A DNA stretch of 64,000 nt, from the NCBI GenBank assembly GCA_017548605.1, contig JAFYZT010000008.1, forward strand, positions 62,001-126,000. The letters are read 5' to 3'. The stretch comes from Prevotella sp. (lineage in GTDB: Bacteria; Bacteroidota; Bacteroidia; Bacteroidales; Bacteroidaceae). How positions within the stretch are numbered: the first letter of the stretch is position 1; every line of letters starts with the position of its first letter. Of the stretch, positions 4,210 through 54,608 are shown one piece after another. The translations under genes were made by a program, and so were the position numbers. A model generated the notes under the pieces. That model was not told where the DNA came from and made no database searches. It worked only from the letters and a program-made list of their open reading frames with translations.

Positions 4210-5103
4210 TTATTTATCGCTCTTCGCTTTGACCTCATCGACTTCGACAATGAAGATGAGGGGTGAATAGGCAGGAATCTTGCCAGCTTCGCGTGCTCCG
4301 TAGGCCAGTTCCTGCGGGATGTAGAGTTCCCATTTGCTGCCTTGGGGCATGAGGGTGAGCGCTTCCGTCCATCCCTTGATGACCTGATTGGGTTTGAAGG
4401 TGCTGGTCTGCGGGTTACGCTCATACGAGCTGTCGAATACGGTGCCGTCGATGAGACGTCCTTCGTATTTCACCACTACCTCGTCGTCGGCAGAGGCCAC
4501 AGGGCCGTTGCCTTGGCGAAGTACTTTGTATTGCAGTCCGCTGGGTCTGGTCACCACCCCTTCTTTCTTGCCGTTCTGAGCCATAAAGTTCTTGCTCAGC
4601 TGCATAGCTTTTTCTGCGGTGGCCCGTTGTGCTGCCTGCGTGATGTGAGCCGCTGTGGAATCGGTGAGCAGCGAGTGGTCCTGGCGCAGCGATGCGATAA
4701 ATCCTTTGTTAAAGAGTTGAGAGTCCAAGGTGTCGGCGGTGAGAGCACCTTTCAGGTTTTTCTCTTCCGCTCCTATGATGCGTCCAGCCACCATTCCTGC
4801 CAGTTGCACACCGGCACTGTAGCCTTTGCCGCGCATATTGCCCAGAGCGGCAACGGTCTCTTCATAGCCGCGGATAAATTCTGGCATATCCGCCTCTTCC
4901 ACGCCGAACTGCTGTTTGAGATACGCTTTCAGCCCTTTGGTGGCTTCCATGCCTGCGGCATAGCTCAGAGAGTCCTCAGGAGTGACGAGTTGAGTGACAG
5001 TGGCTACTTTGCCTTTCTTCTTGCCTTTTTTGGATTGCGCAAGCGTTGTATTGAAAGAGGCACTCGCCAGAATGACGAGTGCCAATAACAGGTATCTTCT
5101 CAT
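4210..5103 (-). CDS. FKBP-type peptidyl-prolyl cis-trans isomerase, exported
   Basis: A 297-residue foldase. Residues 1-22 are a signal peptide ending at TLAQ, followed by a lysine-rich stretch and an FKBP N-terminal dimerisation-like helical region (LSYAAGMEATKG). The C-terminal ~110 residues are the FKBP domain: VVKYEGRLIDGTVFDSS, KGWTEAL and the IPQELAYG tail motif. It should catalyse X-Pro isomerisation in the periplasm. It is third of three related genes transcribed together and begins 9 bases after the previous stop. The domain order resembles FkpA/Mip proteins. Confidence 0.92.
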   Translation of the reverse strand: MRRYLLLALVILASASFNTTLAQSKKGKKKGKVATVTQLVTPEDSLSYAAGMEATKGLKAYLKQQFGVEEADMPEFIRGYEETVAALGNMRGKGYSAGVQLAGMVAGRIIGAEEKNLKGALTADTLDSQLFNKGFIASLRQDHSLLTDSTAAHITQAAQRATAEKAMQLSKNFMAQNGKKEGVVTRPSGLQYKVLRQGNGPVASADDEVVVKYEGRLIDGTVFDSSYERNPQTSTFKPNQVIKGWTEALTLMPQGSKWELYIPQELAYGAREAGKIPAYSPLIFIVEVDEVKAKSDK

Positions 5104-5112
5104 GATGGATGA

Positions 5113-6030
5113 TTATTTCTTCTGCACCTGAGCGGGATTAATGGTGATGGCCTGTGCCGGCTGGCTCTTCGGTTTTTGTTCAGCACTCAACAGTTGGAGT
5201 TTGAACACCAGCGGAGCGAAAGGAGGAATACTCTGCATGCCGCGTGCGCCATAGCCCAGTTGCTGTGGGATATACACTTCCCATGTTGAACCGACAGGCA
5301 TGTGAAGCAGTGCCTCGCGGAAACCCTTGATGACAGCTTGTTCGCGTGAAAGGTCAACGGTCATGGGGTCACGGTTGAAGGAACTGTCAAATACGGTGTC
5401 GTTGGTGAGTTTGCCTTCATAGTGTACCTTCACAATCATCGAGTCAGTAGGAACGGCACCCGAACCTTCGGTAATCACCTTGTACTGCAGGCCGGAGGGA
5501 AGGGTCTTCACACCTTCTTTCTTGGCATTCTCGGCCATCCATTTCTCACCTTCTTCTTTCTCTTTCTTGTAGCGTTTGGCTACTACGTTTTCGTGAACTT
5601 TGTCTGCCATTGGCTCAATCAAGCCCTGGGCAATATCGGGATCGATGGAAGCCTTGCCCTTGACACCGTCGATGAGACCGGCGGTCAGGTTGCTGTACGA
5701 CACATGTTCGGTGCTGTCACCGGCGAAGATAGAATTGTTGATGCCTTCGGACATCTGTCTTCCAACCTGCAAACCAAGCACATAAGCGGCCTTTTTCTTA
5801 TCACCGGCAGTCTCCACACCCTCGTTGAAGCCTTCGATAAAGTCATCGATATAAGCAGTGTCGATGCCTTGCTGTAAGAGGTAGTCTTTCATATGAGCAC
5901 CGTTAGCCACGCCGATGGCATAGCTGAGGGTGTCAACGTCGTTCTTGAGGTCGGCCTTGGGCTTGCTGCCGCAAGAGACGAACACTGCTGCCGTAACCAA
6001 ACTGGCAGCCATGAATAGAATTTTTTTCAT
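5113..6030 (-). CDS. FKBP-type peptidyl-prolyl cis-trans isomerase, lipoprotein
   Basis: 305 residues with a lipobox (VFVSC, Cys20) in place of the simple signal peptide of its downstream neighbour, so it should be membrane-anchored. An N-terminal FKBP-N helical region (DTLSYAIGVANG) precedes the FKBP domain (VHYEGKLTNDTVFDSS, KGFREALLHMP, YIPQQLGYG). A Lys/Glu-rich helix links the two. The C-terminus ends in a Pro/Gln/Lys tail after the domain. Middle gene of the FKBP trio; a role in folding envelope proteins is inferred from family and anchor. Confidence 0.92.
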   Translation of the reverse strand: MKKILFMAASLVTAAVFVSCGSKPKADLKNDVDTLSYAIGVANGAHMKDYLLQQGIDTAYIDDFIEGFNEGVETAGDKKKAAYVLGLQVGRQMSEGINNSIFAGDSTEHVSYSNLTAGLIDGVKGKASIDPDIAQGLIEPMADKVHENVVAKRYKKEKEEGEKWMAENAKKEGVKTLPSGLQYKVITEGSGAVPTDSMIVKVHYEGKLTNDTVFDSSFNRDPMTVDLSREQAVIKGFREALLHMPVGSTWEVYIPQQLGYGARGMQSIPPFAPLVFKLQLLSAEQKPKSQPAQAITINPAQVQKK

Positions 6031-23959: not shown

Positions 23960-23996
23960 AAATACCCACCCCCAACCCCTCCCCAAGGGAGGGGAG
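23960..23996. repeat. GC-rich palindrome copy
   Basis: Starts at the base after the korB stop: AAATACCCACCCCC, then AACCCCTCCCC-AAGGGAGGGG. Reverse orientation relative to the copies at 25136 and 37941, sharing the AATACCCACCC tail. Confidence 0.75.
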
Positions 23997-24058
23997 ATGA
24001 ATGGCGGGGAAGGGTAAATAAGGTAAAAAAGTAAAAGGGGGATTAGGTAATAAATTGG

Positions 24059-24185: not shown

Positions 24186-24842
24186 TTATAATTTCTCGCC
24201 GTAGCAGAGGTCGCCACAGTCGCCGAAGCCTGGAACGATATATTTGTGTTCGTTCATGCCTGGGTCGATGGCAGCGCACCAGAGGGTGGTGTCTTCTGGT
24301 ACGGCCTGGCGCACGATGTCGATGCCCTCTTCTGTGCCGATGACGCAGGCGATATGCAGGGCGGCAGGTTTGCCCGTCTTGAGCAGCGCCTCATAGCTGG
24401 CAGCCATGGAGCCGCCGGTGGCCAGCATGGGGTCTGCAATGATGAGCGTCTTACCCTCGATGGTGGGCGATGCCATATATTCAGTATGTACGCCTACTTC
24501 GGTATGCTCGCGGTTGGTGTACATGCGGAATGCTGAGACGAAGGCGTTGGCGGCATGGTCAAACACGTCGAGGAACCCCTCGTGGAAAGGCAGTCCGGCC
24601 CGCAGGATAGTGGCCAGGAGGATGTCATCGGTAGGCAGGTCGATTCGAGCCGTGCCCAGAGGTGTGGTCACCTCACGTGGCTGATAACTGAGAACTTTGG
24701 AGATTTCATAAGCCATCATCTGGCCGATGCGGCGTATGTTGTTACGGAATAGTTGGCGGTTCTGCTGATACTCAGTATCACGAATCTCTGCCAGATATTG
24801 GTTGATGACGGAATGGCCATCGCTCAGATTGATGATATTCAT
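24186..24842 (-). CDS. upp: Uracil phosphoribosyltransferase
   Basis: 218 residues. It makes UMP from uracil and PRPP in pyrimidine salvage. Seen: ILRAGLPFHEGF, the PRPP loop as IADPMLATGGSM, and a C-terminal uracil-binding segment (IVPGFGDCGD). Normal family length. It has a predicted leader of about 440 bases (promoter at 25289) that contains two GC-rich palindromes and a GGAGTTAAAATG word array, a layout also found upstream of rbfA. It converges on korAB at a shared terminator. Confidence 0.95.
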   Translation of the reverse strand: MNIINLSDGHSVINQYLAEIRDTEYQQNRQLFRNNIRRIGQMMAYEISKVLSYQPREVTTPLGTARIDLPTDDILLATILRAGLPFHEGFLDVFDHAANAFVSAFRMYTNREHTEVGVHTEYMASPTIEGKTLIIADPMLATGGSMAASYEALLKTGKPAALHIACVIGTEEGIDIVRQAVPEDTTLWCAAIDPGMNEHKYIVPGFGDCGDLCYGEKL

Positions 24843-24859
24843 GATGATATTTTTTATCG

Positions 24860-24921
24860 AAGTTAAAGTGGGAGTTTTTGTTTAATCGGGAGTTAAAGTG
24901 GAAGTTAAAATGGAAGTTAAT
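24860..24921. repeat. GGAGTTAAAATG word array upstream of upp
   Basis: Degenerate tandem words (AAGTTAAAGTGG, GGAGTTAAAGTGG, AAGTTAAAATGG) ending in AAGTTAATTCGC. A close relative lies at 37791-37890, 12 bases before the rbfA start, in the same relation to a minus-strand gene. Confidence 0.7.
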
Positions 24922-25040
24922 TCGCGTCGCTATTTTTTGAATGTTGATTTTTGAATTTTGATTGTTGACGAGTTGTTGAGACATATGTCGAAAAATTGTC
25001 GCTTCGCGATTCTGATTTATCAATGAAGAATTTATAGGGT

Positions 25041-25068
25041 ATTCTCTTGCTCCTTGCCCCCTGCTCCT
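25041..25068 (+). repeat. Left member of the inverted repeat pair around pckA
   Basis: A 28-base word array beginning ATTCTCTTGCTCC. The reverse complement of 27121-27148 matches it at 25 of 28 positions by eye. Related words occur at 36146-36170 and 54547-54575. Confidence 0.7.
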
Positions 25069-25073
25069 TCATT

Positions 25074-25104
25074 CCCCCTCCCTTTGGGAGGGTTGGGGTG
25101 GGTT
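25074..25104. repeat. GC-rich palindrome copy
   Basis: CCCCCTCCCTTTGGGAGGG followed by TTGGGGTGGG, in the upp leader region. Confidence 0.75.
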
Positions 25105-25135
25105 CTCACCACTTACCTCTTACCCCTTCTTTGCT

Positions 25136-25172
25136 CCCCTCCCTTGGGGAGGGGTCGGGGGTGGGTATTTTA
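25136..25172. repeat. GC-rich palindrome copy with GGGTATTTTA tail
   Basis: CCCCTCCCTTGGGGAGGGG, then TCGGGGGTGGGTATTTTA; same orientation as the copy at 25074, about 60 bases away. Confidence 0.75.
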
Positions 25173-25288
25173 ATTCTTTTACTTTTTTACCCTTCAAGGC
25201 TTATTGTCCTGCACGAAGTGCATAACTTCCTTTTATTACTTCCAATTTTACTTCCTTTCAGTTACTTCCAATTAATAATTGTTTGCTG

Positions 25289-52324: not shown

Positions 52325-53167
52325 ATGAAAACCAATTATGAAGTACGCTATGCGGCGCACCCCGAGGATGCGAAGCATTACGACACGGCGCGTATTCGCC
52401 GCGATTTCCTCATTGAGAAGGTGTTTGCCGCCGATGAGGTGAACATGGTTTATTCAATGTATGACCGAATGGTGGTGGGCGGTGCCATGCCAGTGAAAGA
52501 GGCATTGAAACTTGAGGCCATCGATCCGTTGCGTGCTCCCTTCTTCACCACACGCCGTGAGGTGGGCATCTTCAACGTGGGTGGTGAGGGTGTTGTCCGT
52601 GTGGGCGATGAAGAGTTCTCCCTTGGCTATAAGGAAGCTTTGTATATCGGCCGTGGCGACCGTGATGTGTTCTTCGAGAGTAAAGACGGCAAGAAACCAG
52701 CCAAGTTCTATTTCAACAGTACTACTGCTCATCAGGAATATCCCTGCCGTAAGGTGACGAAGAAAGATGCCGTGGTGGCCCACATGGGCAGCTTGGAGAT
52801 GAGCAACGAACGCGACATCAACAAGATGCTGGTCAACCAGGTGTTGTCTACTTGTCAACTACAGATGGGCATGACCGAGCTGGCGACGGGTTCGGTGTGG
52901 AATACCATGCCTGCGCACGTTCACAGCCGCCGCATGGAGGCCTATTTCTATTTTGAGGTGCCCGAGGAGCAGGCTGTATGTCACTTCATGGGTGAGGTGG
53001 AAGAGACACGCCACATCTGGATGAAGGGCGACCAGGCGGTGCTCTCTCCTGAATGGAGTATCCATAGTGCTGCTGCCACCCACAATTACACATTCATCTG
53101 GGGTATGGGCGGCGAAAACCTTGACTACGGCGATCAGGATTTTTCGAAGATTGGGGAATTAAGGTAA
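52325..53167 (+). CDS. kduI: 5-dehydro-4-deoxy-D-glucuronate isomerase
   Basis: 280 residues. Isomerises 5-keto-4-deoxyuronate, released from pectin or glycosaminoglycans by lyases, to 2,5-diketo-3-deoxygluconate. The two-cupin fold is seen with the zinc site in AHVHSRRMEAYFYFE and later HSAAATHNYTFIWGMGGEN. Normal length. In most Bacteroidota kduD follows directly; here 582 bases, with a four-helix-bundle gene and repeat arrays, lie between. Confidence 0.95.
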   Translation: MKTNYEVRYAAHPEDAKHYDTARIRRDFLIEKVFAADEVNMVYSMYDRMVVGGAMPVKEALKLEAIDPLRAPFFTTRREVGIFNVGGEGVVRVGDEEFSLGYKEALYIGRGDRDVFFESKDGKKPAKFYFNSTTAHQEYPCRKVTKKDAVVAHMGSLEMSNERDINKMLVNQVLSTCQLQMGMTELATGSVWNTMPAHVHSRRMEAYFYFEVPEEQAVCHFMGEVEETRHIWMKGDQAVLSPEWSIHSAAATHNYTFIWGMGGENLDYGDQDFSKIGELR

Positions 53168-53260
53168 GGAGTGTGGGAGTATGGGAGTATAGGAGTTTGG
53201 ACGATAGTTTGTGGGAACATAGGAGTGTGGGAGTATGGGAGTATAGGAGTTTGGACGATA
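53167..53260 (+). repeat. Two perfect 40-base direct repeats made of octamers
   Basis: Copies at 53167-53206 and 53221-53260 look identical, with a 14-base spacer. Each is four octamers (GGAGTGTG, GGAGTATG, GGAGTATA, GGAGTTTG) followed by GACGATA. It begins at the last base of the kduI stop codon. Left boundary of the four-helix-bundle insert. Confidence 0.9.
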
Positions 53261-53283
53261 CTTTGTAATTAATAGATTCATAG

Positions 53284-53673
53284 ATGATGGCAACGTTTAC
53301 TTTTCAGAATATCTTAGCATGGCAAAAGGCACATGAGTTCTCGTTAATTGTTTACGAGATTACGGGTCTTTTTCCCGAAGAAGAGAAATATGGCTTGGTA
53401 TCTCAATTCAGACGGGCTGCTGTTTCTGTGGGAGCCAATATTGCCGAAGGATACAAAAAACTCAGCAAGGCTGACAAACTCCGCTTCTTGAATATTGCCG
53501 AAGGTAGTATGGCTGAATGTATGAACTACATCTTATTGTCAAAAGACCTTGGTTTTATTAACGATGAGCAATTTACTAAATTGTGTGAAACGATAAATAG
53601 CGCAGGCAGGTTGCTGACGGCTTATTGCAATGGAATAATTAACAATAAAGGAATAAAATCGGAGTTGGAATAA
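53284..53673 (+). CDS. Four-helix-bundle protein (23S rRNA intervening-sequence protein family)
   Basis: 129 residues. The family signature is clear: ILAWQKAHEFSLIVYEIT, then SQFRRAAVSVGANIAEGYKK and the helix FLNIAEGSMAECMNYILL. Relatives occur in 23S rRNA intervening sequences and resemble Avd, the accessory protein of diversity-generating retroelements; the biochemical role of free-standing copies is unknown. It splits kduI from kduD and is bounded by octamer arrays in inverted orientation, so it looks like cargo of a small mobile unit (inference). A/T-richer than the kdu genes. Confidence 0.92.
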   Translation: MMATFTFQNILAWQKAHEFSLIVYEITGLFPEEEKYGLVSQFRRAAVSVGANIAEGYKKLSKADKLRFLNIAEGSMAECMNYILLSKDLGFINDEQFTKLCETINSAGRLLTAYCNGIINNKGIKSELE

Positions 53674-53690
53674 ATGAAAGAGTCGGGGGA

Positions 53691-53737
53691 TGGACTAATG
53701 TCCAAACTCCCAAACTCCTAAACTCCCAAACTCCCAA
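53691..53737 (-). repeat. Right-hand octamer array, inverted relative to the left one
   Basis: On the minus strand four octamers (GGGAGTTT, GGGAGTTT, AGGAGTTT, GGGAGTTT) end in GGAC, matching the GGAGTTTGGAC inner end of the left arrays. A small palindrome TGGAC-TAAT-GTCCA (53691-53704) marks its inner edge. It ends 12 bases before kduD. Confidence 0.85.
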
Positions 53738-53749
53738 AAATAAACAACT

Positions 53750-54541
53750 ATGAACCTATTCTCACTCAAAGGAAAAGTGGCATTGGTGACCGGTGCAGCC
53801 TATGGCATTGGCTTCGCTATTGCCGAGGCACTGGCAAAGGCCGGTGCGCAGATTGCATTTAATTGTCGTGGACAGGAACATTTGGACAAGGCGTTGGCCG
53901 ACTATCGTGCCTTGGGCATCGATGCACAGGGTTACTTGTGCGACGTGACCAATGAAGCCGATGTGCAGAAGATGGTGGATGCCATCCGTCGCCAATTTGG
54001 ACACATTGACATCCTTGTCAATAACGCGGGCATCATCAAGCGCATTCCTATGCACGAGATGAAACGTGAGGAGTTCCAGCAGGTCATCGACATCGACCTT
54101 GTGGGGCCGTTTATTATGACCAAGGCTGTCATCCCCGAGATGATGGAGCGCCGTGAGGGAAAGATTATCAATATCTGCTCGATGATGAGCGAACTGGGAC
54201 GTGAGACGGTTTCGGCGTACGCCGCCGCCAAGGGAGGGCTGAAGATGCTCACTCGTAATATCTGCTCCGAATATGGAGGGTATAATATCCAGTGCAACGC
54301 CATCGGTCCGGGTTATATCGCCACACCTCAGACGGCACCTTTACGTGAACGTCAGGCCGACGGCAGCCGTCATCCCTTCGACTCGTTCATCTGTGCCAAG
54401 ACACCTGCAGGGCGCTGGCTCGAACCCGAAGAACTGGGCGGTCCCGCCGTGTTCCTCGCCTCACATGCCTCCGATGCCGTCAATGGTCATATCTTGTACG
54501 TTGACGGTGGCATTCTTGCCTATATCGGGAAACAGCCTTAA
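53750..54541 (+). CDS. kduD: 2-dehydro-3-deoxy-D-gluconate 5-dehydrogenase (SDR)
   Basis: 263 residues. Classical short-chain dehydrogenase reducing 2,5-diketo-3-deoxygluconate to KDG with NADH, the step after KduI. Seen: TGAAYGIGFAIAEALAKAGA (cofactor site), NNAGI, the catalytic serine in ICSMMSELG and YAAAKGG (Tyr-x3-Lys), plus GYIATPQTAPLR. It follows the inserted unit; no clear -7 box was found in the 76 bases before it. Confidence 0.93.
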   Translation: MNLFSLKGKVALVTGAAYGIGFAIAEALAKAGAQIAFNCRGQEHLDKALADYRALGIDAQGYLCDVTNEADVQKMVDAIRRQFGHIDILVNNAGIIKRIPMHEMKREEFQQVIDIDLVGPFIMTKAVIPEMMERREGKIINICSMMSELGRETVSAYAAAKGGLKMLTRNICSEYGGYNIQCNAIGPGYIATPQTAPLRERQADGSRHPFDSFICAKTPAGRWLEPEELGGPAVFLASHASDAVNGHILYVDGGILAYIGKQP

Positions 54542-54608
54542 AGGGGGTGAGAGGTGAGGGGTAAGAGAATAGTCTGAGGGGTAATCTCTCACTTCTCACC
54601 CCTCACCA
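54542..54608. repeat. Word repeats with inverted arrangement after kduD
   Basis: GGTGAGAGGTGAGGGGTAAG (54546 onward) and CTCTCACTTCTCACCCCTCACC-type sequence (to 54606) are degenerate inverted arms. The segment AAGAGAATAG matches the pckA-flanking words. Confidence 0.6.

Follow-up and report, generated by a model that had tools for sequence, protein, structure and literature searches.

Four-helix-bundle (4HB) proteins of the PF05635 family are known from the intervening sequences (IVSs) of 23S rRNA. According to PMC4990558, family members form a homopentameric ring, and the mobility of IVSs was suspected earlier by Ralph and McClelland (1993), cited therein. The family was also found in rRNA insertions of candidate phyla radiation bacteria (PMC11270868), and 18 PF05635 genes were reported within cas loci (PMC3936711). 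Here, we describe a 64,000-nucleotide stretch of a Prevotella sp. genome (contig JAFYZT010000008.1, positions 62,001 to 126,000; hereafter, the window), in which a gene for such a protein lies between kduI and a kduD-like gene and is enclosed by two inverted arrays of short tandem units. We consider this cassette to be probably a single-gene mobile element that encodes the 4HB protein and has the inverted arrays as its ends. The cassette resembles an IVS in its protein family, in having the open reading frame (ORF) within complementary ends, and in its sporadic distribution. It differs from an IVS in that it lies between protein-coding genes of an operon and not in rRNA, its ends are tandem arrays of element-specific units, the mismatches do not follow the pattern of an RNA stem, and pairs of filled and empty sites show insertion.

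Repetitive extragenic palindromes (REPs) associated with the REP-associated tyrosine transposases (RAYTs) are of the GTAG type. As in the system of RAYTs and REP doublets (REPINs) (PMC3116915), a gene with its own inverted repeats is accompanied by dispersed inverted doublets without the gene, but the cassette has variable short tandem units and the window genome has no Y1 transposase match. The short tandemly repeated repetitive (STRR) sequences of cyanobacteria are also mostly intergenic and have units of 7 bp (PMC2670836), compared with 8 bp in the window cassette. In Xanthomonas campestris ATCC 33913, 186 GGGAATC-type arrays are described, forming 70 inverted pairs and showing, in the account of PMC4692102, no general association with mobile elements. 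For TAACTGA repeats, mobile origins have been discussed, and cold shock or ribosomal proteins were proposed as binders (PMC4679880); the term S23 is absent from the main text of both of these papers. In the stem of the Nostoc trnL intron, two classes of 7-nucleotide repeats replace each other (PMC4476775). Unlike the STRR, GGGAATC, and TAACTGA repeats, the arrays described here delimit a 4HB element. The X. campestris strain is presumably also the source of the solved 4HB protein XCC0516. Insertion sequences and transposons share with the 4HB family a target duplication (GTAAT, at the family level), whereas a recognizable transposase is absent from the cassette. Among the titles and abstracts listed from the open-licence PMC literature on 4HB proteins with IVSs, inverted repeats, or mobile elements and on GxxExxY or heptamer repeats, we found none describing the combination presented here.

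The window 4HB protein matched PF05635 with 123 bits (cut-off, 33.8) and TIGR02436 with 115 bits (cut-off, 24), in agreement with the preliminary description of this DNA, which had assigned it to the family of the 23S rRNA IVSs. The relationship to Avd, the accessory protein of diversity-generating retroelements, stood as distant homology but not as membership: the score against the Avd model NF033474 was 29.9 bits, below the cut-off of 80, the bAvd score was also below its cut-off, and the window genome has no match to the reverse transcriptase model RVT_1. A profile built from 12 relatives matched PDB entry 2gsc (XCC0516, five chains) with an E value of 1e-35, and entry 2rld, also with five chains, was among the matches. 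PF05635 is the only family encoded by the cassette; no recognizable transposase and no other ORF with a family match was found in it.

The array pattern (GGAGTNTG in 2.6 copies, up to three mismatches) matched eight times in the window, all at the kduI–kduD locus; 0.02 matches are expected, and a count of eight was reached in none of 100 shuffles. Aligned as an inverted repeat, the two arms are 83% identical over 41 nucleotides and 93% over 27. All three array blocks, two on the left and one on the right, end in a GGAC-type inner motif, and within the same subfamily, 29 of 37 arms on the left and 29 of 37 on the right contain a similar inner end, as detected with a pattern that itself demands AC or CC after G. 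The position of the gene within inverted octamer arrays was thus confirmed by the ORF, the arms, and the shuffles. The left array begins, as had been noticed, at the kduI stop codon, namely on the final base of TAA (53165–53167). The 12 bases given between the right array and the next gene were nearly correct; from the array end at 53735 (53738 with the following AAA), the gap to the ATG at 53750 is 14 or 11 bases. Elsewhere in the genome, GGAGTNTR arrays occur at 18 places, counted from 49 overlapping matches.

The window genome contains four full PF05635 genes and two weaker matches. By eye, all four full genes have inverted short arrays, and their units are unlike: GGAGTNTG in the window copy and GGAAGTTAAA-type, GGTGAGA-type, and GAATTTTGA-type units in the others. 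Arms were scored automatically by aligning the 300 bases on the left with the reverse complement of the 300 on the right, and these four genes scored 23.5, 14.5, 22.5, and 26.5; one of them (L001, 14.5) therefore falls under the threshold of 16 applied below. Within the genus, PF05635 was matched in 105 of 120 genomes (95 above the cut-off). The survey covered 117 loci, almost all taken from among the strongest matches listed, with 121 genes, 119 of them nonredundant. The arm score was at least 16 in 86 of these 119 loci, and the median was 21.5 compared with 9.0 for 51 window genes (p = 5e-19 with the window 4HB gene removed). Two of the 51 reached 16, namely, the window 4HB gene itself and a gene at 24186–24842 that sits between stray arrays, leaving 1/50 without the 4HB gene; shuffled sequences did so in 0.04%. 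The own right arm ranked first among 121 in 53 loci and within the top five in 89. The expectation that other 4HB genes would show the same arrays was thus borne out for inverted arrays, whereas the octamer is not a signature of the family because the units differ between elements. Units in the genus include GGAGTTAA, GGTGAGA, AGTTGACA, CGAGGTA, GGATGAA, ATAATGC, and GTTCAA with little palindromes. A period of 7 or 8 was found in 38 of the 72 arms with a clear period and one of 14–16 in 16 more, with about 4.6 units per aligned arm (median), and G exceeded C in 83 of 86 left arms. Array-poor relatives were also checked for an rRNA location, and none of 20 matched Rfam at the gathering score.

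The units differ between elements, match between the two arms of an element, and track the protein subfamily. When loci from different genomes and different sites were paired, arm similarity was correlated with protein identity (Spearman, 0.40; reached in 0 of 500 permutations). The 119 loci represent 62 sites, at four of which two kinds of 4HB gene were found; gene and unit clearly swap together at pta–ackA (L004 compared with L062, L065, L097, and L101) and at a ParA/ParB-like pair (L127 compared with L145). The arms match in register, with an identity of 0.871 compared with 0.727 when shifted by one period, and the in-register value was higher in 64 of 75 loci. Where the proteins were less than 70% identical, the two arms within an element were more alike than the same arm between species in 37 of 38 and in 113 of 127 pairs; in 24 independent pairs taken with no filter on arm score, the values were 19.5 and 14.5, respectively (p = 0.0005). 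Among closer proteins, arms within an element were not more alike (8 of 21 pairs at 70–85% identity and 0 of 5 above). In one genome (G089), a near-identical 1.07-kb duplication with copies 18 kb apart contains a 4HB gene (L107 and L108); it was rejected as a case of clean transposition because the duplicated stretch exceeds the element.

Direct evidence of insertion comes from cyanobacterial plasmids. Plasmid C of Trichormus ATCC 29413 and a plasmid of Scytonema NIES-4073 carry a 4HB gene in inverted AGGAGTCAGAATTC-type arrays at a site that is empty in the plasmids of Nostoc linckia NIES-25 and Aulosira NIES-50. The flanks are 97.0–98.4% identical, and the insert is 428 or 414 bp, including a duplicated GTAAT. 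This 5-bp target duplication lies outside both arms and contains the upstream TAA stop. Four further records appear empty at the same site, judged from the match table alone (78% covered, 97.6–98.1%). Because near-identical plasmids differ by the gene, both arms, and the duplication, insertion of gene and arms as one unit is shown for the 4HB family and strongly inferred for the window copy. The earlier proposal that gene and arrays move as one unit is thereby upheld at the family level by the plasmid inserts with their 5-bp duplication, together with the correlation of unit and protein and the two clear swaps. A different 4HB gene with GGGGAAAA-type arrays occupies a junction on Nostoc ATCC 53789 pNsp_c, whereas two C052 plasmids are empty there (insert of 506 bp, including a 3-bp overlap ATG; flanks, 92–96%). 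The copies on C052_D and pNsp_a have less clear ends, with an 11-bp overlap in one comparison and none in others. Between Cmr2 and Cmr3 (cas10/cmr2 and cmr3), a 4HB copy is present in PCC 7003 and none in PCC 7002. At the Trichormus site, Brasilonema has an array-only insert of 83 bp, including a 9-bp overlap with nonidentical copies (flanks, 80–82%). In addition, an apparently decayed, shortened 4HB copy was observed on Nostoc C052 pC052_E (L458) at the site that carries the insert in Trichormus but not in NIES-25.

The junction occupied by the window copy was compared among relatives. kduD was found at E ≤ 1e-60 in 37 of 60 relatives, and 30 kduD loci were examined; kduI adjoins kduD in 16 of them (15 by tblastn and one, L076, in which the kduI end was recognized by eye). 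Five of these junctions have the gene with arrays, two have inverted arrays without the gene, and nine have neither, with a gap of 19–99 bp; empty sites thus exist at this junction in relatives, which favors the earlier proposal. One of the five filled junctions (L073) holds a 4HB gene of a different subfamily (25% identity), and its arms are borderline at 15.5. The two gene-less cases have GGAGTTAAA-type units (L072) and ACACAGAG units of the GxxExxY type (L084). The etfA–acd junction was followed in the 30 best-matching of 107 genomes, with gene names assigned by eye; the upstream gene was placed in an electron-transfer subunit family at a score below the cut-off. The 4HB gene with arrays is present in 2 of 30 (the arrays of L327 by eye), seven junctions are essentially empty (0–21 bp), and the remainder contain unrelated small ORFs or other repeats.

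Beyond the genus, PF05635 was matched in 235 of 296 sampled genomes of the phylum (221 above the cut-off), and 10 of the best 30 loci have arms of at least 16. In a wider search (L281–L321; 41 of 80 loci among the matches listed), 21 of 39 scorable genes reached 16. Of those 39, 14 are outside Bacteroidota by record title, with Balneolaceae counted inside, and 10 of them reach 16 (Phycisphaerales, Planctomycetales, Acidobacteria, Omnitrophota, Lentisphaerae, Thermodesulfobacteriota, and WWE3). Mismatched left and right arms reach 16 in 1% of pairs in the phylum set and 5% in the wider set. IMG/VR yielded 27 loci, of which 25 were scorable and 19 scored at least 16, whereas phage records gave no 4HB match at E 1e-8. 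Matches were found in 23 plasmid records, mostly from cyanobacteria. Some cyanobacterial plasmids have 4HB genes with inverted arrays between cas genes (cmr2–cmr3 and cas6–cas4), with arm scores of 14.5, 30.5, and 28.0 at such junctions (L455, L471, and L474), which suggests that PF05635 genes earlier regarded as cas-associated may be insertions. Two Calothrix NIES-22 plasmids (1 and 2; L450 and L451) carry the same 4HB gene with GGGTGTA-type arrays; the copies lie in a longer shared stretch and therefore are by themselves no proof of transposition.

Here, we propose how such an element may move. The element ends would be the inverted arrays, each with some four to five short units in tandem. 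The 4HB ring, which has five subunits in a solved member, may bind its own unit, perhaps one per subunit, and could thereby join both ends as DNA. Strand transfer would then be performed by a nuclease or replication activity, either of the host or of the 4HB complex itself. The 4HB gene would presumably depend on operon read-through for its expression, which would leave only insertions in the sense direction to persist. Gene-less arrays may be nonautonomous copies moved by the cognate 4HB protein, and the rRNA IVSs may represent a particular instance, the insertion of such an element into rRNA.

For the mobilization of gene-less arrays in trans, support is moderate. The pattern RGAGTTNN in three copies is present in 35 of the 105 genomes that have PF05635 and in none of the 15 that lack it (p = 0.004, a value not corrected for genome relatedness), and its reversed control pattern occurs in 11 of 120 genomes. 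Array hairpins number 14 in 864 kb from six 4HB genomes compared with 3 in 689 kb from five genomes without (p = 0.02), and the same stretches hold 11 and 0 same-direction array pairs, respectively. Lone tandem arrays number 177 in 464 kb of the window genome and 89 in the 689 kb without PF05635. GxxExxY proteins (PF13366), matched in 75 of the 120 genus genomes, have comparable surroundings: inverted flanks scored at least 16 in 20 of 31 genes at the 30 strongest loci (L353–L382). Their units are mostly CAC(A/G)GA(G/T)-like (CACAGAG, CACAGAT, and CACGGAT) or CACGAAT-like, and a few (L372 and L374) have longer inverted repeats and no clear short unit. That these genes have like arrays suggests that the array architecture is independent of the protein family. 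A wider proposal, on which we are evenly divided, is that there is a general class of minimal mobile elements in many phyla whose ends are inverted, protein-specific arrays, encoding either 4HB proteins (with GGAGTTAA-like and other units) or PDDEXK-type GxxExxY proteins (with CACAGAG-like units), and that the heptamer repeats of cyanobacteria, Xanthomonas, and Bacteroidota as well as the rRNA IVSs are their products.

Alternatively, the 4HB protein could be an accessory end-binder of a nonautonomous cassette that is moved by a separate enzyme in trans, such as an insertion sequence transposase, a PDDEXK protein, or another. To our knowledge, no catalytic domain is known in PF05635; this, the existence of gene-less array elements, and the analogous arrays of the unrelated GxxExxY family make such an arrangement a tentative possibility. 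Candidate enzymes do not follow the 4HB genes: among the 120 genomes, RVT_1 was matched in 67, Y1_Tnp (PF01797) in 74, PF13366 in 75, and PF05635 in 105, and none of the first three tracks PF05635, a comparison in which other enzymes, such as DDE transposases, were not searched. One genome (G003) has 4HB elements and no PF13366 match. RVT_1 and Y1_Tnp gave no match in the window genome, whose assembly is about 92% complete, and RVT_1 gave none in this genome, G003, G007, or G021, four genomes with 6 to 15 PF05635 matches apiece. Persistence therefore requires neither a reverse transcriptase nor a RAYT, and both were rejected as requirements. The suggestion of help in trans is thus not supported for these two enzymes and may still hold for gene-less arrays or for an enzyme of another kind.

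It is improbable that the cassette spreads as an RNA-level element like the 23S rRNA IVS, with the arms forming a long RNA stem and the spread occurring via RNA and reverse transcription. The shared protein family and the 28-bp terminal stem of the Coxiella IVS (PMC4990558) are in line with this idea, as are the strict sense orientation and the pairing of the arms in the predicted RNA fold (z = −3.97; 20 shuffles). With neighbors called from ORFs, both neighbors were sense in 103 of the 119 genus loci and both antisense in none; nine were sense/antisense, four antisense/sense, and three at contig ends. All 103 surveyed copies between two same-strand genes read sense, whereas 24 of 49 baseline window genes had both neighbors sense and four had both antisense. 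The sense bias can result from selection for read-through expression or from RNA-level insertion. Arm mismatches, however, showed no excess of G–U pairs: wobble-compatible and other transitions numbered 157 and 175 (p = 0.35), 19 and 18, 36 and 41, and 28 and 39 in the four gene sets and 9 and 11 in the array-only hairpins. The arms thus seem to be kept as DNA and not as an RNA stem, and a test for stem upkeep by wobble pairs came out negative in all sets. The missing RVT_1 matches and the short target duplication, which fits DNA insertion, point in the same direction. The arms can pair, yet their mismatches lack G–U bias, and we therefore prefer DNA ends combined with selection for expression.

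We think it very unlikely that the arrays are ordinary host repeats arising by slippage or as hairpins, with the 4HB genes incidental or old vertical passengers. Lone arrays are common in the window genome, many 4HB loci are common to several species, and genomes lacking PF05635 also have arrays and hairpins, albeit at lower frequency; against this, unit and 4HB protein are correlated across genomes and sites, the plasmid insert contains both arms with the duplication outside them, and control genes lack inverted arrays. A regulatory module, with kduI–kduD expression controlled through binding of the 4HB protein to the arrays at the mRNA or DNA level, would suit arrays placed between stop and start codons, and STRRs were proposed to couple genes or stabilize transcripts (PMC2670836), but sporadic presence at kduI–kduD and etfA–acd and the same cassette type in unrelated operons (62 sites) and in plasmid and CRISPR operons make it the least credible of these explanations.

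Several observations weigh against reading the cassette as a mobile element with array ends, in addition to the lack of a known catalytic domain. The clear 5-bp duplication comes from one site with two filled and two empty records; elsewhere, the overlap was 3 bp, a TTCTA that is ambiguous, or an imperfect 9 bp, or no boundary could be resolved, and a near-identical empty counterpart of the window copy was not found. With 119 loci at 62 sites, many copies appear to have been inherited vertically. At the two weaker swap sites, the arms of the odd gene score 15.5 (kduI–kduD) and 11.0 (recA site, L159). Weak arms were found at 33 of 119 genus loci (below 16; 18 below 12) and at plasmid loci, where 6 of 14 scored reach 16 and two more have 14.5 and 15; in three of the rest, the end of the ORF extends into the right arm. 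Such overlap is scored strictly (L452–L454), and counts of loci without arrays may therefore be too high. In the window genome, nine same-direction array pairs accompany only two hairpins. Only 5 of the 14 hairpins were closer to arms from the same genome than to those from other genomes at p < 0.05 (combined p = 0.0007), and array-only hairpins have no strict orientation, the upstream gene being in the same direction in 10 and the opposite in four. Moreover, GGGAATC repeats occupy rather conserved places (PMC4692102), which speaks against lively movement.

If the cassette is indeed a mobile element, the very common PF05635 family would gain a testable role, an origin would be offered for short tandem arrays that were published without an agreed explanation, and the rRNA IVSs would be tied to a wider mobile family. 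A 4HB gene inside an operon, for example, in a CRISPR locus, may then be a passenger. A recognition system in which the ends vary in sequence from element to element but track the protein of each would be unusual.

The features of the locus are given in Table 1. The naming of the left neighbor as kduI was supported, whereas that of the right neighbor as kduD was not: this short-chain dehydrogenase/reductase (SDR) passes the gluconate 5-dehydrogenase model NF005488 (474 bits; cut-off, 369) and is below the cut-off of the KduD model TIGR01832 (224 bits; cut-off, 339).

Table 1. Features of the 4HB cassette and its surroundings (window coordinates)
Feature	Position	Strand	Basis or remark
4HB gene, PF05635/TIGR02436, 129 residues	53284–53673	+	ORF and profile matches
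Left arm, outer block: four GGAGTNTR octamers	53167–53200	+	
Inner-end motif GGACGATAG, closing the outer left block	53199–53207	+	
Left arm, inner block: four octamers, 54-bp duplicate of the outer block	53221–53254	+	
Inner-end motif GGACGATAC, closing the inner left block	53253–53261	+	
Inner-end motif of the right arm, GGACATTAG	53695–53703	−	
Right arm: four inverted octamers (AAACTCCC/T)	53700–53738	−	Last full octamer ends at 53735
Host gene kduI, flanking, outside the element	52325–53167	+	NF002091, 419 bits (cut-off, 250)
Host kduD-like SDR gene, flanking, outside the element	53750–54541	+	Best model, gluconate 5-dehydrogenase
Inverted GGTGAGA array hairpin, probable gene-less relative	54542–54608	+	Sequence inspection by eye

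The left arm is repeated with a 54-bp period (53167–53266), and the arm is likewise repeated in the left flank of L076, inner motif included; the duplication is a sign of slippage or of repeated insertion at one end. The GGTGAGA hairpin lies directly 3′ of the kduD-like gene, and its unit is like the arms of a 4HB gene of the same genome (L002); it was seen by eye and is absent from the automatic array scans of the window. Three similar 4HB cassettes lie near one another in genome G076. At L130, GTTCAA arrays containing small palindromes that vary occupy about 4661–4800 and 5602–5745 of the reverse complement, inside an apparent O-acyltransferase reading frame (by eye) and close to three 4HB cassettes that resemble one another.

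In the window at 24843–25255, left-over GGAAGTTAAA and GAATTTTGA arrays stand side by side near a upp-like gene, with no 4HB gene. Repeats of the type CCTCACCCCC(G/A)(G/A)CCCCTCTCC were noticed at the etfA–acd junctions L333, L348, and L349 and in the window at about 23970–24000 and 25080–25165, where such repeats surround the upp region. At L348, inverted copies of this repeat bracket a DUF559-like gene (by eye), and at L333, one copy lies beside such a gene.

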